Positions 2,239-28,980 of a stretch of DNA of 35,982 bases are shown one piece after another; the first letter of the stretch is position 1; every line of letters starts with the position of its first letter. Origin of the DNA: a virus; the IMG/VR virus record IMGVR_UViG_3300032092_003110, positions 1-35,982 of that record; one strand, given 5' to 3'. The translations under genes and the position numbers were made by a program. The notes beneath the pieces are model-generated. The model was not told the DNA's origin, made no database searches, and saw only the letters and a list, made by a program, of their open reading frames with translations.

Positions 2239-3081
2239 ATGATTGATGTTATTACTGTAGTATTTAGAGACGAGTTGAAGATTCTGCAAGCACAAGCACA
2301 AAGTGTTGCACGTTATTGCAAACAACTGAACATAGGCAATATCTATGTTGTGGTCAACGACGAAGACAATATCACACAACTAATTGACGGAAGTTGGTGG
2401 GGTGATTTGCACGATCGTGTGATTGTTACTCCTAGGTCTGTGTTTTCAACTCAATGGCACAGCAACGGATGGGTCAGTCAACAAGCACTCAAGCTGCTGA
2501 CTGCCAGCATCAGTTACAGTCATTACAGCATGATTCTAGACGCCAAGACTATATTTGTTCGAGAACTCACGCTGGACAAATTGTTCAATCAATCAGCACA
2601 GTTACAAATAGGACAACTGGATGTATTTCCTGTGTTTGAACCCTGTCGACAAATAGTCAACCGGCTCTGGAACATTGACTTGCAAAAACAAGCAGGTCCT
2701 GGTGGCGTGCCATTCTTTGTATGCAACGACGTTGTACGTGCCATGATTGCAGATGTGTATGCATATACTCATCAAAATTTTCCCACTTGGTTTCAAAGCC
2801 AAGGCCTGGTAACAGAATTCATGTTGTATTCGGGCTACATTGTGAAAGGTGCAGGCAGTCTTGACATATTATACAGCCAACACAACAACATAGGTGGCAT
2901 AATTAATGTGTGCCATTCAGAAGTTGAAGCATGGGATCGCAAGTTTGCTGAAATGAAAAAACCCAACACCCTCACTGTGAGTATACATCGTGCTGCTTGG
3001 ATAAAAATGACTCCTGAGCAGCAACAACAATATCAAATGTTCTTGATTGATCGTGGAGTAACACAAGCATGGCAAATATGA
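2239..3081 (+). CDS. Glycosyltransferase-like protein (DUF6492 type)
   Basis: The ATG at 2239 starts directly at the first beta strand (MIDVITVVFRDE); an in-frame TTG at 2209 would add ten residues and is less likely. About 280 residues. The N-terminus has a GT-A style opening (VITVVFRDELKILQAQAQSV). GWVSQQALKL is followed by YSMILDAKTIFVREL, where the D of LDAKT sits where a DxD-like metal site would be. The layout matches DUF6492-type phage and bacterial glycosyltransferase-like proteins, and the minus-strand gene at 5482-6342 has the same GW..QQA.KL arrangement, so the two look like distant paralogues. Donor and acceptor are unknown. It is followed with overlap by a deacetylase and an SGNH-type gene, which suggests glycan tailoring. 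Confidence 0.65.
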   Translation: MIDVITVVFRDELKILQAQAQSVARYCKQLNIGNIYVVVNDEDNITQLIDGSWWGDLHDRVIVTPRSVFSTQWHSNGWVSQQALKLLTASISYSHYSMILDAKTIFVRELTLDKLFNQSAQLQIGQLDVFPVFEPCRQIVNRLWNIDLQKQAGPGGVPFFVCNDVVRAMIADVYAYTHQNFPTWFQSQGLVTEFMLYSGYIVKGAGSLDILYSQHNNIGGIINVCHSEVEAWDRKFAEMKKPNTLTVSIHRAAWIKMTPEQQQQYQMFLIDRGVTQAWQI

Positions 3082-3608
3082 AAGCACTTTGTTTGGTGGC
3101 TCATCCTGATGACTGTGTAATCTTTGCCTACAGTTATATCCATGCTCATCTAGAACTGGACTGGACCATAGGGTACTTGACCTACACACCACAAGATCCA
3201 CGTGGTGCAGAACTTGCTGCATTTTGGCGGCGGCGTGGTGTTGAATGTGTGTTTTTGGGATTTGAAGATCATTGGCACGACAATGAACAAAATCAATTCA
3301 CACGTTGGAATGAGGCAGAGGCAAAACATGCATGTTGGGAGCTGGCACGTGACTATAATCTAGTGCTCACTCATGACAAACATGGTGACTACGGGCACAT
3401 ACATCATAGACTGGTGCATGATGCTGTGGCACATCATCACAACCTAATCACGTTTGCTCCGCACAATCAAGGCACAGTCACATGGTCAATTCCAGCAGAA
3501 ACGTATAGTCTGACTGAATTACCATTGCATGGTGAGATCATTTCCAGTTTTCATCTAACAGAACACAAAAATAGTTACACAGAACCTCACAAGGAAATAG
3601 CCCCATGA
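3078..3608 (+). CDS. PIG-L/LmbE-family zinc deacetylase
   Basis: The family signature AHPDD stands near the N-terminus right after the first strand (MKALCLVAHPDD). These residues give the catalytic Asp and two zinc ligands in LmbE/PIG-L N-acetylglucosamine deacetylases. A histidine-rich GHIHHRLVHDA around residue 115 fits the third zinc ligand region. About 176 residues, somewhat short for the family. ATG 3078 makes an ATGA overlap with the preceding stop, the habitual arrangement here; ATG 3069 would add MAN. The substrate is unknown, and a sugar N-acetyl group is inferred from the neighbouring glycosyltransferase. It overlaps the next gene by ATGA. Confidence 0.8.
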   Translation: MKALCLVAHPDDCVIFAYSYIHAHLELDWTIGYLTYTPQDPRGAELAAFWRRRGVECVFLGFEDHWHDNEQNQFTRWNEAEAKHACWELARDYNLVLTHDKHGDYGHIHHRLVHDAVAHHHNLITFAPHNQGTVTWSIPAETYSLTELPLHGEIISSFHLTEHKNSYTEPHKEIAP

Positions 3609-16146: not shown

Positions 16147-16869
16147 ATGAGAGATTACTTATTGGACCTGGTCCAGCACACACATGATTTGGGTTGTATT
16201 GACCTGGTCAAAATTGTCGGTGACGACAAAACTACATCAATTTCAGGTCTTGCTGAAGACTTGAGCGTGGTGGTACAAGCAGAATTTAAAAATCCTGTTG
16301 CTGAGTTTATGGGCACATTTGGTATGCCAAACTTGACCAAACTCAAGACACTGCTGAATCTGCAAGAATATCGAGAAGAAGCCAAGCTCACAATTACCAA
16401 ACGAGCCACTGGTGAACCTGATGGCATTGCATTTGAAAACAAAAACGGTGACTTCAAAAACAGCTATCGATTCATGGCCAGTGAAATTGTCAATGACAAG
16501 TTGAAAACTGCCAAGTTCAAAGGTGTCAACTGGCACATTGAGTTTGAGCCCAGTGTTGCCAGCATCATGCGGTTAAAAATGCAAATGAGTGCCAACGTTG
16601 AGGAGCCCAATTTTCAGGCCAAGGTTGAAAACGGTGATCTTAAGTTTTTCTTTGGCGATCATAGTACACATGCTGGAAACTTTGTGTTTCAAGCAGGAGT
16701 CACTGGCACACTTAAACGTGCATGGAGTTGGCCAGCCAACCAAGTAAGCAGCATCCTGGGGCTGACTGGTGACAAAATCATGCGCATCAGCGACGATGGT
16801 GCAGCACAGATCACTGTTGACTCTGGTGTTGCTGTTTACAACTATATTCTTCCTGCACAAAGCAAGTGA
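16147..16869 (+). CDS. 45: DNA polymerase sliding clamp, T4 gp45 type
   Basis: 240 residues, against 228 for T4 gp45. It has the beta-rich clamp pattern, an early ISGLAEDLSVVVQAEF segment, FGMPNLTKLKTLLNL (the gp45-like GxxNLxKLxxLL) and the C-terminal hydrophobic strand VAVYNYILP. The clamp tethers the polymerase to DNA and, in T4, also activates late transcription through gp33 and gp55. A good ribosome site (AAGGAG) and its own promoter lie upstream. The clamp-loader genes gp44 and gp62, which neighbour gene 45 in T4, are not in this window; dpdA takes the downstream position. Confidence 0.9.
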   Translation: MRDYLLDLVQHTHDLGCIDLVKIVGDDKTTSISGLAEDLSVVVQAEFKNPVAEFMGTFGMPNLTKLKTLLNLQEYREEAKLTITKRATGEPDGIAFENKNGDFKNSYRFMASEIVNDKLKTAKFKGVNWHIEFEPSVASIMRLKMQMSANVEEPNFQAKVENGDLKFFFGDHSTHAGNFVFQAGVTGTLKRAWSWPANQVSSILGLTGDKIMRISDDGAAQITVDSGVAVYNYILPAQSK

Positions 16870-18434
16870 TGACTGAGCATGTGCAAGACAATCTAACTGC
16901 CAAGCAAAATGACTATGCTGTGTTCTTGCCGGCTATCAGTGGTTTCTACGCCACGTTTGTGGGCAAGCAACGCAACGAGCACTATGTAGATCCGGCTCGT
17001 TTCCCAGCTGGACTTACCGACATGGAACAAATGAACTGGCTCAACAGTTCTAAAGCCTTGTTTCCATACAAATGGTCATTATACTCGGGCGGGCATGCTA
17101 ACTTGGACTTGAACAAGCAGGATTGGTCAGAAGACATGGTGCGTAATCGGGAGCCTGGCACATTTATGCTAGGCGACTCAGGTGGCTTCCAGATTGCCAA
17201 GGGCTTGTGGGAAGGTGACTGGAAGGCCAATTCAGGTTGTGTCAAAGCACAAAAGAAACGAAGTTTAATCTTGAACTGGCTGGACAATGTAGCAGACTAT
17301 GGAATGATCTTGGATATTCCAACCTGGGTAATCCATGACAAGAAAGCGTCAGCGGCTTGTCAAATCACCACACTACAAGAAGCAGTGGACGCTACCAAAT
17401 TTAACAACGAATACTTCATGAAACATCGCAAGGGTGTTGCCAATGGTGGTGCCAAGTTCTTGAACGTGTTGCAAGGTGACAATCATACTTCAGCAGACCA
17501 GTGGTATGAAACCATGAAAGAATACTGCGATCCTGTCAAGTATCCAGACACTCACTTTGATGGCTGGAGTATGGGCGGCCAGAACATGTGCGATGTACAC
17601 TTGGTGTTAAAACGCCTAGTAGCCTTGCGTTACGACAATTTACTTCAAGAGGGCAAGCATGATTGGATGCACTTCTTGGGAACCTCCAAACTGGAGTGGG
17701 CTGTTTTATTAACTGTAATCCAAAGGGCCGTAAGAAAATATGTCAATCCAAATTTCACAATCTCGTTTGACTGCGCCAGTCCGTTCCTTGCAACAGCAAA
17801 CGGACAAGTCTACTTTGAAAACGTGTTTGAACACGATTCCAAATGGTCGTATCGCATGGCTCCTTCGGCCGACGACAAAAAATATTCCACAGACACACGC
17901 AAGTGGAGTGATGGAGTAGTAGCCGATGGAGTTTATCCACGTTGGGAAGATAGTCCATTGAGCCACCTGTTCAAGATGAAGGACATTTGCATCTACAAAC
18001 CGGGTGACCTAAACAAAATTGGTAAAGAAGGTAAAACATCATGGGATTCATTCTCGTATGCCTTGCTCATGGGACATAATGTCTGGATGCATTTGACTGC
18101 TGTGCAAGAAGCCAACAGACGTTTTGATGCAGGATCTCGTCCTGCTATGATGCAACGTCAAGGTGGTGACTATGCCAAGTTTGAAGATATTGTGGAGGCA
18201 ATCTTTGCAGCACCAGATCGGGCCGCTGCTGAGGCTATTATCGAAACCTACGACAGTTACTGGATGGAGATTGTGGGCACACGAGGTTTCAAAGGCAAAA
18301 AAGCCAAGAATGCTCGCACACAGTTCAACGTATTATTTGATTTAGAGCAAACCAATGTTGACGATAGTGAGGAAGATAGTGTACAATTGAATGAAGCAGC
18401 ACTAGATCAACTTGAAAACGAGCAGGCAAAATGA
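16869..18434 (+). CDS. dpdA: DpdA-like DNA-guanine transglycosylase (TGT family)
   Basis: 521 residues from ATG 16869, which overlaps the clamp stop by one base; a GTG at 16866 is the other choice. TGT-family signatures are visible: MLGDSGGFQ with D103 (substrate-binding Asp and Ser), MILDIPTW with D149, GWSMGGQN near residue 232 (the TGT GGLAVG-like loop) and SFDCASPF with D301, corresponding to the DxxxP nucleophile region. The zinc-binding CxCxxC of queuosine TGT is absent, as in phage DpdA proteins. DpdA exchanges guanine in DNA for a 7-deazaguanine, which protects against restriction. FolE, QueD and QueE in the same window supply the precursor. It is followed with ATGA overlap by two more genes. 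Confidence 0.85.
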   Translation: MTEHVQDNLTAKQNDYAVFLPAISGFYATFVGKQRNEHYVDPARFPAGLTDMEQMNWLNSSKALFPYKWSLYSGGHANLDLNKQDWSEDMVRNREPGTFMLGDSGGFQIAKGLWEGDWKANSGCVKAQKKRSLILNWLDNVADYGMILDIPTWVIHDKKASAACQITTLQEAVDATKFNNEYFMKHRKGVANGGAKFLNVLQGDNHTSADQWYETMKEYCDPVKYPDTHFDGWSMGGQNMCDVHLVLKRLVALRYDNLLQEGKHDWMHFLGTSKLEWAVLLTVIQRAVRKYVNPNFTISFDCASPFLATANGQVYFENVFEHDSKWSYRMAPSADDKKYSTDTRKWSDGVVADGVYPRWEDSPLSHLFKMKDICIYKPGDLNKIGKEGKTSWDSFSYALLMGHNVWMHLTAVQEANRRFDAGSRPAMMQRQGGDYAKFEDIVEAIFAAPDRAAAEAIIETYDSYWMEIVGTRGFKGKKAKNARTQFNVLFDLEQTNVDDSEEDSVQLNEAALDQLENEQAK

Positions 18435-18937
18435 TTAGACAAGGACATGACGAATCAGTAAAGTTCTTTACAGGCACGGAAGTAGAACATACTCCGGCAT
18501 TGGGAAAGAAAACTCTGTTCGTGGTAGGCGTGCAAACAGAGGATGATATTGCTGCTCACTTGCAGGGTTGCGAGCACATCTACTTTGGTGCCAATCAGAG
18601 TTTTCCCAACTATGACACCAATGCTCGTGGTTGGCTAGACTGGGAGAACATGATTGGACCATTCCTAGACCGAGATTATCTGTGTACCCTAGACATAGAT
18701 GTTCAATGCATAGAAGGCTTGCTAGAAAGCGGATTCACTGAACATCACAACTTTATTCCCATGATATCGGTCAAGCTGCCTTACATACGTCAGCTGGGCT
18801 ACAATGCCACACTCAAACTGGACGACAAAGACTTTGCTGCTACCAATCCCGGTGTTTGGTGTCACAGTGTACACAAATTACAAAGTCGCACAGCATTCAC
18901 TGACTGGTCTAAATATACCAAGGACGAAACATTATGA
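18431..18937 (+). CDS. Unknown protein in the dpdA operon
   Basis: 168 residues. It overlaps dpdA by ATGA and the next gene by ATGA, so all three are translated as a unit. Visible features: VKFFTGTEVEHTPALGKKTLFVVG at the start (here described, an alpha/beta opening), HIYFGANQSFPNY, LCTLDIDVQCIEGLL, FIPMISVKLPY, and LKLDDKDFAATNPGVW near the end. The alternation of strands and helices suggests an alpha/beta protein. No catalytic motif is recognised. The coupling to dpdA suggests a role in DNA-base modification, either as partner subunit or in making the final base; this is inference from context. Confidence 0.7.
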   Translation: MIRQGHDESVKFFTGTEVEHTPALGKKTLFVVGVQTEDDIAAHLQGCEHIYFGANQSFPNYDTNARGWLDWENMIGPFLDRDYLCTLDIDVQCIEGLLESGFTEHHNFIPMISVKLPYIRQLGYNATLKLDDKDFAATNPGVWCHSVHKLQSRTAFTDWSKYTKDETL

Positions 18938-19377
18938 ACCAACAACAAAGATCAACTGTAGATAGAATCATGACCGTGGCAGAACGCAAGATCTGGGTCA
19001 CATTTTGCAAAGAAGGAATTCATTGCTATCCTGCTGCTGCCACAGACCCCGCACTGGCCACAGGTGATGAGTACGATGTGAGTTTTTTAGGAACACCACA
19101 TCGCCATATCTTTCACTTTAGAGTGTGGATTGATGTGGTACACAATGATCGAGACATTGAATTCATTCAATTCAAACGCTGGTTGGAAAATCTCTACAAG
19201 GATGGAATCCTACAACTAGACTATAAATCTTGCGAGATGATGGCAGACGATCTGTACATTCAAATTGCAACAAAGTATCCTGATCGTGTGGTCTGGATTG
19301 AGGTATCCGAAGATGGTGAAAACGGAGCCTTGATAAAATATCAAACTCACCGCCCTGTGCAATCTCTTGCAATTTAA
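18934..19377 (+). CDS. QueD/PTPS-like T-fold protein next to dpdA, lacking the catalytic triad
   Basis: 147 residues. The layout follows the 6-pyruvoyl-tetrahydropterin synthase/QueD T-fold: F-C-K-E-G-I-H30, then PH56-R-H58-IFHFRVWIDV as the HxH strand, EFIQFKRWLENL as the D/E-F..LK helix, LDYKSCE101MMADDLY as the (T/C)-x-E..A helix and VVWIEVSEDGENGALIKY as the last V.V.E......Y strand. H30, H56 and H58 fit the three zinc ligands and E101 the pterin-anchoring Glu. The catalytic Cys four residues before the HxH is Leu52, and the Asp-His dyad reads Asp96-Tyr97. Normal QueD chemistry is therefore unlikely. It is coupled to the unknown gene 18431 and through it to dpdA. The fold is inferred by motif order. 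Confidence 0.6.
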   Translation: MNQQQRSTVDRIMTVAERKIWVTFCKEGIHCYPAAATDPALATGDEYDVSFLGTPHRHIFHFRVWIDVVHNDRDIEFIQFKRWLENLYKDGILQLDYKSCEMMADDLYIQIATKYPDRVVWIEVSEDGENGALIKYQTHRPVQSLAI

Positions 19378-19615: not shown

Positions 19616-20001
19616 GTGCCGCTCGAGAAAAAGATCAAGCAGACTTTGATCTCGAGCGATTTGTTGACATGTTCGACGAAGCCTTGACCAGTCAAGATCC
19701 GCGTGTGATGGATTCATTACGCAGTCTCATGATGATGGTGACGCTGACTCGTCCTGAGATCAAAACAGAACACAGTCGCAATCACGGACCTCTGAGAAGA
19801 TTGTTCGAAGATATGAACCATCTAAATAGTCGACTGCATCGCATGGAAGAAAAAGTCAATGCCATGAGTCGATCTAGTGATTCGGCTGAAAAATATGCAT
19901 ACACACAATACCCCAACGAAAAGTATGTCATGACTGCTTCACAAGCTATGGCCACGCAAATAGATCAAGATGTATTGAACCGAGTACAAGGACTAAAATG
20001 A
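19612..20001 (+). CDS. Unknown helical phage protein
   Basis: 129 residues from ATG 19612, chosen for its ATGA overlap with the upstream stop; the longer frame from 19570 would be out of phase with real coding there. The protein is helical and charged, with a heptad-like stretch LFEDMNHLNSRLHRMEEKVN near residue 75 that suggests a coiled coil. A Tyr-rich tail (KYAYTQYPNEKYVM) follows. No domain is recognised. It overlaps the glycosyltransferase gene by ATGA. Confidence 0.65.
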   Translation: MSAAREKDQADFDLERFVDMFDEALTSQDPRVMDSLRSLMMMVTLTRPEIKTEHSRNHGPLRRLFEDMNHLNSRLHRMEEKVNAMSRSSDSAEKYAYTQYPNEKYVMTASQAMATQIDQDVLNRVQGLK

Positions 20002-21212
20002 GAAAACTATACTACATGGGGCTTGAATCTTATGAAGCCCGCTACACACTGCAACTGACAGAATGGAATCGACGTGTGTTTGATCGTCGCGGCCTTGATG
20101 TGGTATATGTGCCTGGCGAAACCTTAGACAACAGCCAAAAGATCGTGGTTGGACAGGTGCTGGATGCACATGGTCGCAGCTACTTTGGCATGAGCCAGTT
20201 GATGAATCTGGTTCGTCTGATGCAACAAGGAGAAATCACCCATGAAGATGTTATCTACTTTGAAGACATGTTTCAGCCAGGCATTGAATCGCTGCCGTAC
20301 ATACTCAATCAAGTTCCTGAGAACCTGCGTCCTCGTATTTTTGTTCGCTGTCTTGCTCAGTCTATCGATCCCGATGACTTTGTTCATGTCTGGGGGATGG
20401 CTAAGTGGATGGGTCTCTATGAGAAAATGGTGTGTGAAATGGTTCGGGATAGCGGTGGAGCAGTTCTTGCAACTAATGAAGAAATGGTCATGCACATGAG
20501 AGTGGCTGGATGGGATGTGCCTATCTACAACATCTCAGGTCTTGCATTTGGCAAAGCAGAAGTGCTGGAACGCATTGGCGGTATCGAAAACGTCCGACCA
20601 TTTCAAGATCGCCCACGTCGTGTGGGTTTTGCAGCCCGCTTTGATCAAGAGAAGCAGCCCGGCTTCTTCATGGATCTGATTGAGATGTATGGTGAACTTA
20701 CTAACGAGCCTTGTGAGTTTGCTATCTACTCCGGCGGTGCATTGCGCAGCAACAATCCTGAATTTGTGACCCGTGCTAGACGAATGGAAGCAGCCGGTAA
20801 ATTAAAAATCTACGACAACATCACAAAAAATGATTACTATTCTCACCTTAATGATACTCGTGTGCTGTTTAATTGCGCCCTGCAAGATTGGGTTTCCAAC
20901 ACAGTCAGTGAAGCAGATACTCTTGGCTGTAATGTTCTATACCCTGCTTATAGGTCTTTCCCTGAAACTTTTTCTAATGACCCTAACAGGCTCTATGTTC
21001 CTTGGAGCATAGATGATGCTTATCACAAGATGCAGAACTTGTTGCGTGAACCACATCACAACATGGGCTTGATCAGTAACTGGAACAACGGCACAGTTGA
21101 TCGCGTAATCGATATCATTGAGGGCAAGGGCGAACAATGGAATCGTGCTGGCAATCGATATCGTGATCATGTGGCACAAGACAAATATCATGTGAGAAAG
21201 ATTGAATCATGA
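19998..21212 (+). CDS. GT-B type glycosyltransferase
   Basis: 404 residues with two Rossmann-like halves. The C-terminal half shows the GT4-like order: RRVGFAARFDQEKQPGFFMDL (the R/K-rich strand after which the donor binds), CEFAIYSGG, LKIYDNITKNDYYSHLNDTRVLFNCALQDWVSNTVSEADTLG described piecewise, where the E of SEAD matches the E-x7-E style acidic residue contacting the nucleotide sugar. It forms an operon by ATGA overlaps with GalE and a DegT-like gene. The product may be UDP-galactose-dependent glycosylation of a virion protein, the host surface or a base; the acceptor is unknown. Confidence 0.7.
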   Translation: MRKLYYMGLESYEARYTLQLTEWNRRVFDRRGLDVVYVPGETLDNSQKIVVGQVLDAHGRSYFGMSQLMNLVRLMQQGEITHEDVIYFEDMFQPGIESLPYILNQVPENLRPRIFVRCLAQSIDPDDFVHVWGMAKWMGLYEKMVCEMVRDSGGAVLATNEEMVMHMRVAGWDVPIYNISGLAFGKAEVLERIGGIENVRPFQDRPRRVGFAARFDQEKQPGFFMDLIEMYGELTNEPCEFAIYSGGALRSNNPEFVTRARRMEAAGKLKIYDNITKNDYYSHLNDTRVLFNCALQDWVSNTVSEADTLGCNVLYPAYRSFPETFSNDPNRLYVPWSIDDAYHKMQNLLREPHHNMGLISNWNNGTVDRVIDIIEGKGEQWNRAGNRYRDHVAQDKYHVRKIES

Positions 21213-22153
21213 GCACTGTTGTAGTCACTGGCGCCGCTGGCTACATTGGTGGTGAAATTGCTCTGTTGTTGAAAGATGCTGGACACACTGTGGTTGGCAT
21301 TGATCGTAGACCCTTGCCAAGTCATCTTGAAGACGTCATGGATTTTGTGCAAGCAGACTTTGACAGCGACGAATCTTATCGCAAGTTAATTTCCGTGCGG
21401 CCCACAGCCATTGTACACTGTGCAGGCACCAGCTTAGTTGGCCCCAGCATTTTGAACCCTAGCGATTACTACAACAACAACGTGGTCAAGACTCTGAATC
21501 TTCTGAACATTGTTATGTCTGCAATGCCACAAACTAGATTTATCTTTAGTAGTAGTGCAGCAGTGTATGGCGAACCCGTCATGACTCCGTGCCACGAAGT
21601 TGATCCCAAAGAGCCTATCAGCCCCTATGGTGAAAGCAAACTGATGGTAGAACAGATCCTGGCTAGCTATCATCGTGCATATGGTCTGGACTATGTGGCA
21701 TTTCGTTACTTCAATGCTTGCGGTGCAGACAGTCAAGGTCGTCATGGACAAGAGCCTGGCGCAACACACATTATTGCTCGAGTGCTAGAATGTTTGCGAG
21801 ACGATGCTGAGTTTACACTAAACGGCACTAACTATCCCACGCCAGATGGCACTTGCATTCGCGACTATGTGCATGTGGAAGATATTGCTCGAGCTCATGT
21901 GTTTGCACTGGACCGTATTGTGCCTGCTGGTGTATACAATCTGGGTTCTGGTTCAGGCATCAGCAATCAAGAAATCATTGCTGCGGCAGAGCGTATTGCC
22001 GGCAAAGAACTAAAAATTGTGTCAGGTAAACAACGTGATGGCGATCCGCCATTGTTGACCGCCAGTGCAGGCAAGTTCGATTCAGTAGTAGATCAGTGGA
22101 AACAACATGATCTTAATGCTATGATCCGCCATGCCTGGGCCTGGTATGTTTGA
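21209..22153 (+). CDS. galE: NAD-dependent UDP-glucose 4-epimerase-like enzyme
   Basis: 314 residues of the extended short-chain dehydrogenase family. The NAD-binding GAAGYIG is at residues 8-14. FSSSAAVYG supplies the catalytic Ser/Thr region, and Y140-x3-K144 in SPYGESK is the catalytic pair. YFNACGAD and the late GxxNLGSGSGISN match GalE. The family usually has about 330-340 residues, so this is slightly short. It interconverts UDP-glucose and UDP-galactose or the N-acetyl forms, feeding the upstream glycosyltransferase to which it is coupled by ATGA overlap. Confidence 0.9.
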   Translation: MSTVVVTGAAGYIGGEIALLLKDAGHTVVGIDRRPLPSHLEDVMDFVQADFDSDESYRKLISVRPTAIVHCAGTSLVGPSILNPSDYYNNNVVKTLNLLNIVMSAMPQTRFIFSSSAAVYGEPVMTPCHEVDPKEPISPYGESKLMVEQILASYHRAYGLDYVAFRYFNACGADSQGRHGQEPGATHIIARVLECLRDDAEFTLNGTNYPTPDGTCIRDYVHVEDIARAHVFALDRIVPAGVYNLGSGSGISNQEIIAAAERIAGKELKIVSGKQRDGDPPLLTASAGKFDSVVDQWKQHDLNAMIRHAWAWYV

Positions 22154-22733
22154 TAAGATTCTAAAGTTTGAACATGCGCTGGCAGAGTTCACTGGCGCAC
22201 CTTATGTGATCATGACTGATTGCTGCACACATGCCATTGAACTTTGTCTACGCCATGATCGAGTACGAAGCTGTAGCTTTACTGCATTTACCTATCTGAG
22301 TGTGGCCATGACCATGCACAAGCTGGGCATCAAATACAGCTTGGAAAATGAAGACTGGACTGGTGAGTATCACATTCATGACACTCGAATCTGGGACAGC
22401 GCTCGACGACTGGAAAAGAACATGTATCGACCTGGTGCCATGCAGTGTCTGAGTTTTGGCCACGGCAAACCTCTGCACATTGGCCGAGGTGGTGCTATCT
22501 TGTTGGATGACCCAGCCGCATACAAGACCATGATCCGTCAACGCTATGATGGTCGCGATCTTGATATCACACCCTGGCAAACACAACACACATTTCAAGT
22601 TGGCTACCACTACAAGCCCACACCCGAAGAAGCTGTTCAGGGTCTCGAACTGTTAAAAGGTATCAAAGAAACCAATCCTGATCCTGTGCATGTTGTGTAT
22701 CCAGATTTAAGAAACATTACCATAGTAGATTGA
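22146..22733 (+). CDS. Half-length DegT/DnrJ/EryC1-type PLP enzyme
   Basis: 195 residues from ATG 22146, overlapping galE by eight bases. The family normally has 360-400 residues. The first part matches the large domain: FTGAPYVIMTDCCTHAIELCL (for the G..YA.....T.AL.L.L segment), SFTAFTYLSVAMTM, and DTRIWDSARRL (for D-A-A-H). CLSFGHGKPLHIGRGGA retains a Lys at the position of the Schiff-base lysine in the S-F-x-x-x-K-x-L-x-x-G-x-G-G motif. The small C-terminal domain is missing. It could be a minimal sugar aminotransferase or a PLP-free dehydratase relative. The next promoter starts at its stop codon. Confidence 0.65.
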   Translation: MFDKILKFEHALAEFTGAPYVIMTDCCTHAIELCLRHDRVRSCSFTAFTYLSVAMTMHKLGIKYSLENEDWTGEYHIHDTRIWDSARRLEKNMYRPGAMQCLSFGHGKPLHIGRGGAILLDDPAAYKTMIRQRYDGRDLDITPWQTQHTFQVGYHYKPTPEEAVQGLELLKGIKETNPDPVHVVYPDLRNITIVD

Positions 22734-24110: not shown

Positions 24111-24665
24111 ATGGCAAACTCATCAGCCGGCGACTTGATTCGTCACTTGGAAGAAAACTTACAAAACACTAGACCAGTGAACTATAGGTACACCAGCACC
24201 AAAGAGTATCACGACTCTTTTCCCTGTGCTTATCGTCAATGGCGTGCCGACAGTCACTGTAATCTAATACACGGCTACAGCTTCAACATGAAGTTTTACT
24301 TTGGCACCAATGATCTGGATGCTCGCAACTGGGCTGCTGACTATGGCGGTCTCAAAGAACTCAAAGGTATATTAGAAAGTCAATTTGATCACACCTTGCT
24401 GGTGGCCGAAGACGATCCTGAACTGGACTTTTACAAAGAGATGGAACGGCGCAAGTTGGCCAAACTGACCATCCTACCCAAACTGGGCTGTGAAGGTCTA
24501 GCTGATCAGCTGTACAAGTATGTGAATGGTGTTTACATTCCTGACATGTGGGGGCAAGCTGAATCCAAACGCCTGTGGTGCTACCGTGTGGAAGTTCGCG
24601 AGACACAAAGCAACATGGCGTTTCGTGAAGGACATCGTGAGTGGAATGAAGATTTATTTGAATAA
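24111..24665 (+). CDS. queD: QueD-like 6-carboxy-tetrahydropterin synthase, phage type with altered metal site
   Basis: 184 residues, longer than E. coli QueD (121). The catalytic triad is readable: C50 in C-x3-HGY, then the Asp-His of SQFDHTLL and GCEGLA with the pterin-anchoring Glu. The last strand YRVEVRET.SN.A is typical. Compared with E. coli QueD from memory, the first zinc His (AAHRL) corresponds to Tyr41 (CAYRQW) and the second His of HGH is Tyr56 (HGYSF); H54 stays. H34 and H49 could be replacement ligands. It would make 6-carboxytetrahydropterin for QueE. It has its own promoter and is separated from folE by the HIT gene. Confidence 0.82.
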   Translation: MANSSAGDLIRHLEENLQNTRPVNYRYTSTKEYHDSFPCAYRQWRADSHCNLIHGYSFNMKFYFGTNDLDARNWAADYGGLKELKGILESQFDHTLLVAEDDPELDFYKEMERRKLAKLTILPKLGCEGLADQLYKYVNGVYIPDMWGQAESKRLWCYRVEVRETQSNMAFREGHREWNEDLFE

Positions 24666-25502: not shown

Positions 25503-27482
25503 ATGACACACAAAATTGCCTGGGTACAACCCAATTTCCAACAAGGTCCCAAAGAACTCAATGCTCATTACTTGCCATATTCAGCAGGTGTGATATGGAG
25601 TTATGCCATTACAGACCCCGAGATCAAACAAAACTTTGAACTCACTGAGTGGGTGTGGCGTAGAGATGAAGTTGAACCTGTTGTACAACGATTAGCCCAA
25701 AATGATATTGTGGCGTTTAGCACCTATGTATGGAATCACAATTACAATTATGAGCTTGCCCGACGAATCAAAGAGATCAACCCTGATATATTAACAGTGT
25801 TTGGCGGCCCTGAACCTGCTATCACTGACCCTGATCTGTTTCGTAAAAATCCTTTCATGGATGTGGTGATCACATTTGAAGGTGAGATAACTTTTCGTAA
25901 ATTACTGCAAGCCTACGAAAGTCGTAGCTTTGCACACATTCCCGGACTGCTGCTAAATCAAGATGGCGAGGCCGTAAACACTGGCGAAGCCAAACGCATT
26001 GAAAGTCTTGAAGAAGTGGTCAGCCCATACCTAGCCGGAGTGTTTGATCAGTTGATCGAAGACAACCCTGGCATCATGTGGCAGGGCACACTAGAGACTA
26101 GTCGCGGTTGCCCGTTTGCTTGCACATTCTGTGACTGGGGCAGCTTGACCTATAACAAAGTCAAGAAGTTTGAACTGGAGCGTGTGTTTGAAGAACTGGA
26201 ATGGATGGCCAAGCGTAACTTTGACTTTATCTCTATCACTGACGCCAACTTTGGCATGTTTGCTGAACGCGACAGCTTAATTGCAGACAAGATCATTGAG
26301 TGTCAAGAAAAGTACGGATCACCAAGAACATTCAGTGTGGCCTGGGCCAAGAATCAAAAGAAGGAAGTAGTAGACATTGTCAAAAAACTTCTGGATGCAC
26401 GTGGTTTCAACCAAGGTCTTACACTCAGCGTACAAAGTCTGGATCTTGATGTGCTGGAAAACATTCGTCGCAAAAACATGGAAATGAACAAGCTCAACGA
26501 AGTGTTTGAATTGTGTGAACAACGCAACATTCCCACATACACAGAACTGATTCTGGGCCTGCCAGGCGAAAGTCTTGAGTCTTGGAAAAAGAACTTCTGG
26601 ACCTTGTTTGAAATGGGCAACCATACTGGTCTCACAGTGTTTCAAGCACAGTTGCTGGAAAATGCTGAAATGAATCTGCTGCAAAAGAAACTGTTCAAGA
26701 TCTCCAGTCAGCCGGTAACCGACTACTTTTCGGGCAGCTACAGCAATGAGCATGTGGAAGAAAGCATTGATATCATTACCGGTACCAAAGACATGCCGTT
26801 TGACATCATGCTGGATGCACATGTGTTTAGTTGGTTTATCAACACATTCCACATCAATGGTGTCAGCACACTGTTGAGCCGTTTGATGTTCAAGTACAGC
26901 AAAGTGCCTTACAGTGAGTTCTACGATGAACTGTTTGAATTCATGCAACAGGATGAGTGGCTGCATCGTGAGCAAGAAGAAGTTCGCGAATACTATCGCA
27001 GTTGGATGACCACGGGCAAAATCAATCATCCCAACATTGGTATTGAAATACACGGGTGGAACCTGATCCACAGAACCATACTAAACATGCATGTGGAAAA
27101 ACAATACAACGGAATTTTTGACATGCTGGAAAGGTTCATGGCACGATATAATTTGCCTGTGGATCTGTTAAACAGCATCATGAGATTCCAACGTAGATAT
27201 CTAGTGGCATATGATGCCATGAACACATATCCTGAGAATCTTGAGCTAGATTACAATATCTGGGAATACCTCAGTTTTGATCATGACCTGGTACATGCAC
27301 CTACTACCTATCAACTGGAGTTTCCAGAAGACAAGACCATGAGCTTTCCCAAGTTCCTGGAACTGTTTTATTTTGCACGGCGACGAAACTTTGGCAAAGC
27401 CATGGTAGAACGAATTGGTCAAGACTCAAATGGAGCACGGCGTGGCGACGGTGCTAGTCGGGCCAAAATCACAGTAGAATGA
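25503..27482 (+). CDS. Radical SAM protein with B12-binding-type N-terminal domain
   Basis: 659 residues. The N-terminal 190 residues follow the B12-binding-type fold used by many radical SAM proteins (NDIVAFSTYVWNHNYNYELARRIKEIN, then TVFGGPEPAITDPDL). The cobalamin-coordinating DxHxxG is absent, so cobalamin may not be bound through His. The SAM cluster motif is C203-x3-C207-x2-C210 in SRGCPFACTFCDWG. ITDANFGMF and YTELILGLPGES match later radical SAM blocks. The C-terminal 250 residues are helical and specific. No reaction can be named. It follows the glycosyltransferase and overlaps the SGNH gene by ATGA. Confidence 0.85.
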   Translation: MTHKIAWVQPNFQQGPKELNAHYLPYSAGVIWSYAITDPEIKQNFELTEWVWRRDEVEPVVQRLAQNDIVAFSTYVWNHNYNYELARRIKEINPDILTVFGGPEPAITDPDLFRKNPFMDVVITFEGEITFRKLLQAYESRSFAHIPGLLLNQDGEAVNTGEAKRIESLEEVVSPYLAGVFDQLIEDNPGIMWQGTLETSRGCPFACTFCDWGSLTYNKVKKFELERVFEELEWMAKRNFDFISITDANFGMFAERDSLIADKIIECQEKYGSPRTFSVAWAKNQKKEVVDIVKKLLDARGFNQGLTLSVQSLDLDVLENIRRKNMEMNKLNEVFELCEQRNIPTYTELILGLPGESLESWKKNFWTLFEMGNHTGLTVFQAQLLENAEMNLLQKKLFKISSQPVTDYFSGSYSNEHVEESIDIITGTKDMPFDIMLDAHVFSWFINTFHINGVSTLLSRLMFKYSKVPYSEFYDELFEFMQQDEWLHREQEEVREYYRSWMTTGKINHPNIGIEIHGWNLIHRTILNMHVEKQYNGIFDMLERFMARYNLPVDLLNSIMRFQRRYLVAYDAMNTYPENLELDYNIWEYLSFDHDLVHAPTTYQLEFPEDKTMSFPKFLELFYFARRRNFGKAMVERIGQDSNGARRGDGASRAKITVE

Positions 27483-28138
27483 CCCGACTGTTTGCATTTG
27501 GTTGTAGTTTTACCAACTATCGCTGGAGCACGTGGGCAGACTGTTTGGCACCAGAATTTGATAGTTTTGAGAACTGGGGACAGAGCGGGGCAGGCAACGA
27601 ATTCATATTTAACAGCGTAATGGAGGCCGATCAGCGCCAGCAATTTGAGCCGCAAGATACTGTGATAGTGTGCTGGACCACTGCCACCCGAGAAGACAGA
27701 TATGTCAATGAACGTTGGCACACACTGGGAAATATGTTTAGTTGCCCGATATATAACAAAGACTACCTTGCCACACACATTGATGAGCGAGGACTACTAA
27801 TAAAAACCCTAGCTTACATCAAGGCAGTAAAAACATTGTTGGAAAAACGACAAGTGCAATGGAAGTTTTTATCCATGGATCATTTTGATTCTCTAAATAT
27901 CTATCAAGATGTAGTTGATTGTATTTTGCCTAGTTATCGAACTGTGCTGTTCAAAGACGGATGGCCCAACAGAAACGGTGACCCTCATCCTAGTCCTGCA
28001 GAGCATTTGGCCTATTTGGATAAAGTGTTGCCGGGCTGGGTGACAACACAATCTACTCGTGTTATAATGCAACAAGAAAGTATCAATCTAAATAAAGATC
28101 CCCGCAAGTCGGGAATGACAAAGGTAACAAGACTATGA
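27479..28138 (+). CDS. SGNH-like hydrolase-fold protein
   Basis: 219 residues. The N-terminus LFAFGCSFTNYRWSTWAD carries the block I-like G-C-S-F-T after the first strand. NWGQSGAGNEFIF is the block II/III Gly-Asn region. NGDPHPSPAEHLAYLDKVL near the C-terminus places D and H as in block V. These phage GCSFT proteins are probably related to SGNH esterases, but no substrate is known. Coupled by ATGA to both the radical SAM gene before and queE after. CTAAATA occurs at 28088, 40 bases before queE. Confidence 0.65.
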   Translation: MTRLFAFGCSFTNYRWSTWADCLAPEFDSFENWGQSGAGNEFIFNSVMEADQRQQFEPQDTVIVCWTTATREDRYVNERWHTLGNMFSCPIYNKDYLATHIDERGLLIKTLAYIKAVKTLLEKRQVQWKFLSMDHFDSLNIYQDVVDCILPSYRTVLFKDGWPNRNGDPHPSPAEHLAYLDKVLPGWVTTQSTRVIMQQESINLNKDPRKSGMTKVTRL

Positions 28139-28980
28139 AACTTAAAATTAGCGAACTATTTTATTCTGCACAAGGTGAAGGCCGTTATATTGGTGTACCC
28201 AGTGTGTTCTTGAGAACATTCGGATGCAACTTTACCTGTTCAGGATTTGGATGCAAACCCGGCGAGGTCAGCAAAGAGGCTGATGAGGTTGCAAAAACAG
28301 TTGAACTGTACAAGACATTTGAAGAACTTCCGCTGGTGAGCACAGGCTGCGATAGCTATGCCAGTTGGCATCCAGACTTCAAACATCTAAGTCCCACATT
28401 CACTCCTGAGCAATTGGTAGAAAAAATGGCTGCACTGCTACCAAACGGCAACTGGCAACAGCCCAATGGCAATCCGGTCCACTTGGTTATCACTGGTGGT
28501 GAACCATTGCTGGGTTGGCAACGTGCTTATCCAGAACTACTGGACCTGTTGCACGAACGTGGACTACGGCACATCACATTTGAAACCAATGGCACCCAAG
28601 ATCTCACTAGAGACTTCAGAAACTATCTTGCAAACTGGCACGGCGAAATTACATTTAGTGTAAGTCCCAAGCTATCGGTGTCAGGCGAAACCTGGGCAGA
28701 TGCCATCAAGCCCAACATTGTGCTTGATTACGAAACTCACGGAGTCACATACTTGAAGTTTGTGGTTGAAAAAGTCACAGACTTTGACGAACTAGATCGT
28801 GCGGTTGACGAATATCGCCTGGCAGGATTTGCTGGTCCTGTGTTTGTGATGCCAGTAGGCGGTGTTGTTAGTGTGTATGATGGCAACAGAATTCATGTTG
28901 CCGACGAAGCACTCAAACGAGGTTACTGGTATAGTCCACGGCTGCATGTGGACTTGTGGGGAAATGGTTGGGGGAAATAA
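28135..28980 (+). CDS. queE: QueE-like 7-carboxy-7-deazaguanine synthase with split cysteine motif
   Basis: 281 residues, longer than typical QueE (210-245). FYSAQGEGRYIGVPSVFLRTFGCN is the family opening (S-x-Q-G-E-G...G.P..F.R..GCN). C31 and C35 are in place, but the third cysteine two residues later is Phe38. C40 or, more likely, C72 in TGCDSYASW completes the cluster, because C-D is the usual C-D-T context. ITGGEPLL and FETNGT are the next QueE motifs. The enzyme converts 6-carboxytetrahydropterin to 7-carboxy-7-deazaguanine by radical SAM chemistry with Mg. With FolE and QueD it completes the route to CDG. Confidence 0.88.
   Translation: MKLKISELFYSAQGEGRYIGVPSVFLRTFGCNFTCSGFGCKPGEVSKEADEVAKTVELYKTFEELPLVSTGCDSYASWHPDFKHLSPTFTPEQLVEKMAALLPNGNWQQPNGNPVHLVITGGEPLLGWQRAYPELLDLLHERGLRHITFETNGTQDLTRDFRNYLANWHGEITFSVSPKLSVSGETWADAIKPNIVLDYETHGVTYLKFVVEKVTDFDELDRAVDEYRLAGFAGPVFVMPVGGVVSVYDGNRIHVADEALKRGYWYSPRLHVDLWGNGWGK

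Follow-up and report, generated by a model that had tools for sequence, protein, structure and literature searches.

A T-fold protein of phages, here called TfL, is probably a metal-dependent enzyme of QueD descent that takes over after QueE, in the place of QueC, and converts 7-carboxy-7-deazaguanine (CDG) to 7-deazaguanine for the DNA guanine transglycosylase DpdA; a dedicated glycosyltransferase possibly acts next. It was analysed in a 35,982-nucleotide stretch of viral DNA, referred to as the window. TfL is a relative of QueD (6-carboxy-5,6,7,8-tetrahydropterin synthase) in which the catalytic triad is lost throughout the family, and its gene excludes QueC. What is new here is that TfL carriers split into two insertion modules, one of them coupled to a glycosyltransferase. 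To our knowledge, neither the coupling nor the split has been described before. The following genes of the window are concerned:

16866..18434, plus strand: DpdA (DNA guanine transglycosylase), KVP40/nt-1-like long type with D104-SGGFQ and D302 (AlphaFold2 and fold search)
18431..18937, plus strand: conserved 168-aa protein between dpdA and the TfL gene (homologues in 138 of 267 loci)
18934..19377, plus strand: TfL, QueD-like T-fold protein that lacks the catalytic triad of QueD, proposed 7-carboxy-7-deazaguanine decarboxylase (phrog_17812, E 2.9e-35; profile, structure and fold evidence)
19998..21212, plus strand: GT4-like glycosyltransferase of 404 aa, a member of the family accompanying TfL and long DpdA (64% identity to Synechococcus phage BUCT-ZZ01)
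22801..23640, plus strand: FolE, GTP cyclohydrolase I (PF01227, E 2.5e-39)
24111..24665, plus strand: QueD of the PTPS family that retains the catalytic Cys and Asp-His (PF01242, E 9.1e-14; alignment)
28135..28980, plus strand: QueE, 7-carboxy-7-deazaguanine synthase-like radical SAM protein (TIGR03365, E 1.1e-13)

TfL is a T-fold relative of QueD

The TfL reading frame runs from an ATG to a TAA codon and encodes 147 aa. The stop of dpdA overlaps the start of the 168-aa reading frame by four bases, and the stop of the latter overlaps the TfL start by another four, so that these overlaps link all three genes. Searches of Pfam, PHROG, NCBIfam and the PDB matched the 168-aa protein to no family or structure. 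In phage PA5oct and two contigs, its homologue is preceded by an MDR alcohol dehydrogenase gene and by one that resembles a Gfo/Idh oxidoreductase. An alcohol dehydrogenase was rejected as a general partner of TfL, as ADH_N was present in no more than 5 of 51 records.

For TfL itself, information came solely from deeper profiles and from the fold. NCBIfam and PDB sequence searches returned no annotation, a Pfam search gave no PF01242 match at E 1, and the PHROGs search placed TfL in phrog_17812, which has no annotated function; GenBank lists it as 'hypothetical protein'. Relatives were found in 27 phage records, more than 580 IMG/VR records and 15 genome contigs. The structure predicted by AlphaFold2 had a pLDDT of 92.6, and the top 28 matches in a fold search of the PDB were all QueD/PTPS proteins (best E 3.5e-5, TM 0.61/0.74), with QueF appearing as a weak match from rank 36 downwards. 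When the family profile was run against 17,851 ORFs, the best match after the family itself was a QueD (E 0.0017), and QueDs came next as well. Profile-profile comparison with 13 QueDs gave an E of 3.7e-5, whereas the negative controls QueF (E 0.13), FolE (E 0.17) and QueE (E 0.037) were not matched; TfL is therefore a QueD relative. A profile of 46 TfL sequences aligned over its whole length with the QueD structures 2dj6, 4ntm and 3qn0 (E about 0.1), so that H30, H56 and H58 coincide with the metal ligands of QueD, and E126 with the glutamate of the ET motif.

These results bear out the T-fold that a first-pass annotation had read from the sequence. It had counted TfL as the second T-fold gene of the window; FolE is a T-fold protein too, so that TfL is the third. 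The residues that it had listed in QueD order were all found (H30, H56-R-H58, C100-E101 and the closing strand V124-S-E126-D127), and the loss of the triad was confirmed, L52 occupying the position of the catalytic Cys of QueD and D96-Y97 that of Asp-His.

Gene fusions were considered as a functional clue and dismissed, as the long ORFs of Bakedbeans, MA9V-3 and others showed no fusion to a pathway enzyme. That of phage MA9V-3 resembles, by eye, an HNH-type region.

The metal site is retained and the catalytic triad is lost in the whole family

Among 218 distinct homologues, counting rows with a residue at the position, H30, L52, H56, H58, R73, E76, S99, C100, E101 and E126 were invariant, although for R73-E76 and E126-E129 this is partly built in, since both motifs seeded the DNA scans. 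Conservation of R73, E76 and E126-E129 was also seen in phages found by tblastn. H30, L52, H56, H58 and S99-E101 lie outside the seeds and were likewise invariant in 12 phage homologues retrieved by plain tblastn. The three histidines of the metal site, as recognized from sequence, were present in 216 of 216 homologues, and so was the leucine at the position of the catalytic Cys of QueD. At the Asp-His position the window has D-Y and the family is variable. In contrast, all 13 aligned QueDs, that of the window included, retain both the Cys and the Asp-His. A cysteine at the position of the QueF nucleophile was absent from the TfL family alignment. Loss of the triad is a family trait and not local decay; since it is common to all members while the metal site and the ligand-anchoring glutamate are kept, TfL appears to catalyse a different reaction and not to be a degenerate copy. 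The QueD of the window (24111-24665) has HGY for HGH and no obvious first metal histidine, like several phage QueDs.

TfL occurs where QueC is absent

TfL co-occurs with FolE, QueD, QueE and a transglycosylase, both in diverse loci and in complete phages. In 60 diverse loci, FolE was encoded near TfL in 37, QueD in 32 and QueE in 39 cases; among TfL carriers, 46 of 59 records had PTPS and 43 of 49 a QueE-like match. A large B12-type radical SAM protein lies between QueD and QueE in the window (25503-27482; KedN5-like, E 6.9e-77, under the curated cut-off); its gene is rare in related loci.

QueC acts on CDG, so that a phage with QueE and without QueC must either insert CDG or convert it otherwise. 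QueC is almost always part of the gene set in phages that have DpdA and the pathway; among 65 such phages, the exceptions named are two (Hutinet et al. 2019, PMC6884629). QueC was not seen in the window, which means little alone, because a 36-kb fragment gives no verdict on the QueC status of its own genome. We searched 55 viral records, among them 12 complete phages, and 37 more records. Full-length QueC was found in 0 of the 12 complete TfL phages and 0 of 80 IMG/VR records (92 viral records), most of the latter being fragments in which absence is weak evidence; the same search detected QueC in 12 of 14 control genomes. In 2 of the 92 records, neither of them among the 37 additional ones, a partial match exceeded the cut-off: phage D479 matched 69 of the 210 QueC positions (133-201), and one contig matched 59 (3-61), the latter passing the cut-off only together with its neighbours. 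Conversely, tblastn located QueC in 324 phage records, and the TfL profile found no match in 14 QueC phages picked across hosts (0/14). A Fisher test of TfL carriers against QueC carriers was set aside, since presence had been the criterion for choosing both sets and the test was therefore circular. The contrast is also visible among Cellulophaga phages, phi38:2 having QueC and QueF and phiST a TfL gene with neither annotated nearby. Thus, the TfL gene excludes QueC and appears where QueC is absent.

The exclusion of QueC bears on two other readings of TfL. The first-pass annotation had left the choice between a tailoring enzyme and a non-catalytic subunit. A paralogue without catalytic function, which might serve the phage QueD as a regulatory or structural subunit, or DpdA as a chaperone or substrate channel, would agree with the loss of the QueD triad in all members and with the presence of QueD alongside TfL. 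However, the metal ligands and other polar residues are invariant across very diverged members, TfL replaces QueC and not QueD, and in phages its gene has dpdA, the glycosyltransferase, FolE or QueE as a neighbour no less often than QueD; we therefore regard such a role as improbable. The tailoring enzyme is favoured because the metal site and the anchoring glutamate are invariant and because a mere QueD subunit would not exclude QueC. Less probable still is a divergent active QueD or QueF, that is an additional CPH4 synthase or a nitrile reductase/amidinotransferase. It would share the fold, but the Cys nucleophile is missing in every TfL member, the profile comparison with QueF was negative, the window encodes an intact QueD, and the absence of QueC implies that no preQ0 is formed as substrate for QueF.

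TfL carriers use two different transglycosylases

The predicted structure of the window DpdA (AlphaFold2, pLDDT 90.0) had TGTs as its best five PDB fold matches (E 1e-7 to 6e-6); profile searches of Pfam, PHROG, NCBIfam and PDB gave no match. In this TGT fold, D104, the aspartate of DSGGFQ, and the nucleophilic D302 were invariant in 38 sequences. The long DpdA family includes KVP40.0122 (5e-153) and pf16_80 (3e-169). KVP40 is a Vibrio phage that we presume to be close to nt-1, and on this ground we refer to the window protein as DpdA2-like.

Long DpdA was encoded near TfL in 29 of the 60 diverse loci, and 17 others contained a short TGT-like protein. Eleven of the 12 complete phages with TfL carry one or the other, and Roos carries neither. 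The association of TfL with a transglycosylase gene, which the first-pass annotation had named as a point to check, is thereby supported. The short family matches Campylobacter phage F379 (E 5e-21), and Campylobacter phages of this kind are highly dADG-modified with no then-known DpdA (Hutinet et al. 2019, PMC6884629). Its members have about 260 aa and the motifs LDNS, HxLG and RSxDT (phrog_20335). The match to F379, together with dADG in phages lacking a then-known DpdA, leads us to regard the short family as presumably the later DpdA3.

Several features of the short family (phrog_20335/19058), which replaces long DpdA, were recorded. Its gene in phiST is located at L002 12816-13595, and members occur at L013, L009, L010 and L270. 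In several phages a small gene resembling an NMP kinase lies next to it, and in phiST a MazG gene does. Bacillus phage BSTP10 carries a member annotated there as polynucleotide kinase.

A glycosyltransferase accompanies TfL together with long DpdA

The glycosyltransferase of the window shows GT4-like E-K and E-x7-E patterns on reading of the sequence, and a relative exceeded the Pfam cut-off with 45.5 bits. Its 64% identical counterpart in BUCT-ZZ01 adjoins the TfL gene there; further members lie at L003 13969-14997, L004 13861-14922 and L102 8832-10001. The family was present in 29 of 29 diverse TfL loci with long DpdA and in 0 of 17 with the short TGT-like protein, counts that overstate independence because loci share ancestry. 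The safer figures come from complete phages, where it occurred in 5 of 5 with long DpdA (ACP17, PA5oct, Phosso, X1 and BUCT-ZZ01) and in 0 of 6 with the short protein (phiST, RHph_I1_18, Bakedbeans, Ahp1, D479 and MA9V-3). The QueC phages KVP40 and pf16 have long DpdA and lack the family, which ties the glycosyltransferase to TfL plus long DpdA and not to DpdA as such. Among the QueC phages searched, PhiXhv-16 alone gave a weak glycosyltransferase match (3.8e-26). In this Xanthomonas phage (L282 4693-6407), a QueC-domain protein adjoins a GlcNAc-malate-deacetylase-like gene and the weakly related glycosyltransferase.

The coupling suggests glycosylated 7-deazaguanine DNA, of which we know no case. 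With somewhat less than even confidence, we envisage that the TfL product is inserted by the KVP40-type DpdA and then glycosylated by the GT4-like enzyme, giving glycosylated 7-deazaguanine DNA in window-type phages and some Magnetospirillum-like bacteria. Window positions 21209-22733 and 3069-3608 resemble, by eye, a UDP-sugar epimerase, a DegT-type aminotransferase fragment and a PIG-L-type deacetylase, a possible sugar supply for the glycosyltransferase. Within the literature examined, nothing usable came up on glycosyltransferases with deazaguanine DNA or on DpdL; a jumbo-phage review and analysis covers deazaguanine systems in PA5oct and others and mentions neither a glycosyltransferase coupling nor a two-module split.

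A glycosyltransferase partner also raises the possibility that the TfL product carries an acceptor group. TfL would then perform other chemistry on CDG, for example leaving a hydroxyl or another acceptor as 7-substituent, and the coupled glycosyltransferase would add a sugar after insertion by DpdA. Such a role is in keeping with the strict coupling to TfL and long DpdA, with an alcohol dehydrogenase-type gene beside the 168-aa homologue or the glycosyltransferase in some carriers, and with a T-fold match in a viral protein of 459 aa that bears the name 'alcohol dehydrogenase, N-terminal'. We nevertheless consider it unlikely. The TfL family also accompanies the short TGT-like protein without the glycosyltransferase in six complete phages, so that its product needs no glycosylation; there is no conserved Cys at the QueF/QueD nucleophile position, no cofactor site was seen, and ADH_N is as scarce as stated above.

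A related cassette occurs in bacterial contigs. Magnetospirillum assemblies, including M. aberrantis SpK, contain a glycosyltransferase - TfL - dpdA arrangement (L101-L105, Magnetospirillum and relatives), with the TfL gene directly before dpdA and a QueD-like gene just downstream. FolE and QueE were not found near the TfL gene in these contigs. As QueC was detected elsewhere in both Magnetospirillum assemblies searched, the queuosine pathway of the host could supply CDG to the cassette.

Proposed function of TfL

Decarboxylation of CDG to 7-deazaguanine is the simplest reading of TfL where QueC is absent, while the exclusion of QueC as such fits any enzyme that diverts CDG. In the proposed mechanism, the QueE product CDG would bind in the old pterin pocket, where E126, the counterpart of E110 of QueD, would anchor its guanine edge. 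A metal on H30, H56 and H58 would sit near the 7-carboxylate, and TfL would release CO2 to yield 7-deazaguanine, for which DpdA would exchange guanine in DNA. In window-type phages, the dedicated glycosyltransferase may act next on the modified DNA. The fold, the metal-site residues, the loss of the triad, the gene linkage, the exclusion of QueC and the coupling to the glycosyltransferase were established by the analysis, from which the substrate, the decarboxylation and the sequence of steps are inferred. We know of no biochemically proven decarboxylase that uses the metal site of a T-fold.

Relation to known deazaguanine systems

TfL shares with QueD the T-fold, the three-His metal site, the pterin-anchoring C-terminal Glu and the gene neighbourhood. 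Unlike QueD, it has Leu for the catalytic Cys, no conserved Asp-His and no match to PF01242, and it coexists with a true QueD. QueF and QueF-like proteins (preQ0 reductase and archaeosine synthase) are T-fold proteins as well and tailor 7-deazaguanines; TfL differs in the missing Cys nucleophile, a pathway without preQ0, the negative profile comparison and the weak fold matches. DpdA2 systems with QueC, such as that of Vibrio phage nt-1 (Hutinet et al. 2019) and those of KVP40 and pf16 tested here, resemble the window in a homologous long DpdA, FolE and QueE. They have QueC in place of TfL and no glycosyltransferase of the GT4-like family.

Another close counterpart is DpdL. In 2023, Cui and colleagues reportedly gave this name to a predicted 7-carboxy-7-deazaguanine decarboxylase of phages, said to be expected where FolE, QueD, QueE and DpdA occur without QueC, and are said to have reported 2'-deoxy-7-deazaguanine in phage DNA; the TfL carrier Cellulophaga phage phiST was presumably one of the phages that they studied. 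TfL matches this description in its context of FolE, QueD, QueE and a transglycosylase without full-length QueC, whereas neither a coupled glycosyltransferase nor the Magnetospirillum cassette is known to belong to it. Likened by description and not by sequence, TfL is quite likely DpdL. The earlier proposal of a new 7-deazaguanine tailoring enzyme accordingly holds for the tailoring, and the novelty is doubtful; the exclusion of QueC and the glycosyltransferase link go beyond what that annotation could have seen.

Phage DNA is protected from restriction by deazaguanine bases (Hutinet et al. 2019, PMC6884629). A pathway branch that lacks QueC and leads to unsubstituted 7-deazaguanine would account for the hundreds of phages with a seemingly broken pathway, and the unannotated family phrog_17812 gains a testable function. 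T-fold decarboxylases would widen the chemistry of a classic fold. TfL phages probably incorporate plain 7-deazaguanine, which many of them perhaps decorate with a sugar. If the glycosyltransferase acts on DNA, jumbo phages, including the Pseudomonas PA5oct group, would possess a new class of sugar-modified guanine, which, if true, could help to explain their resistance to DNA-targeting defences.
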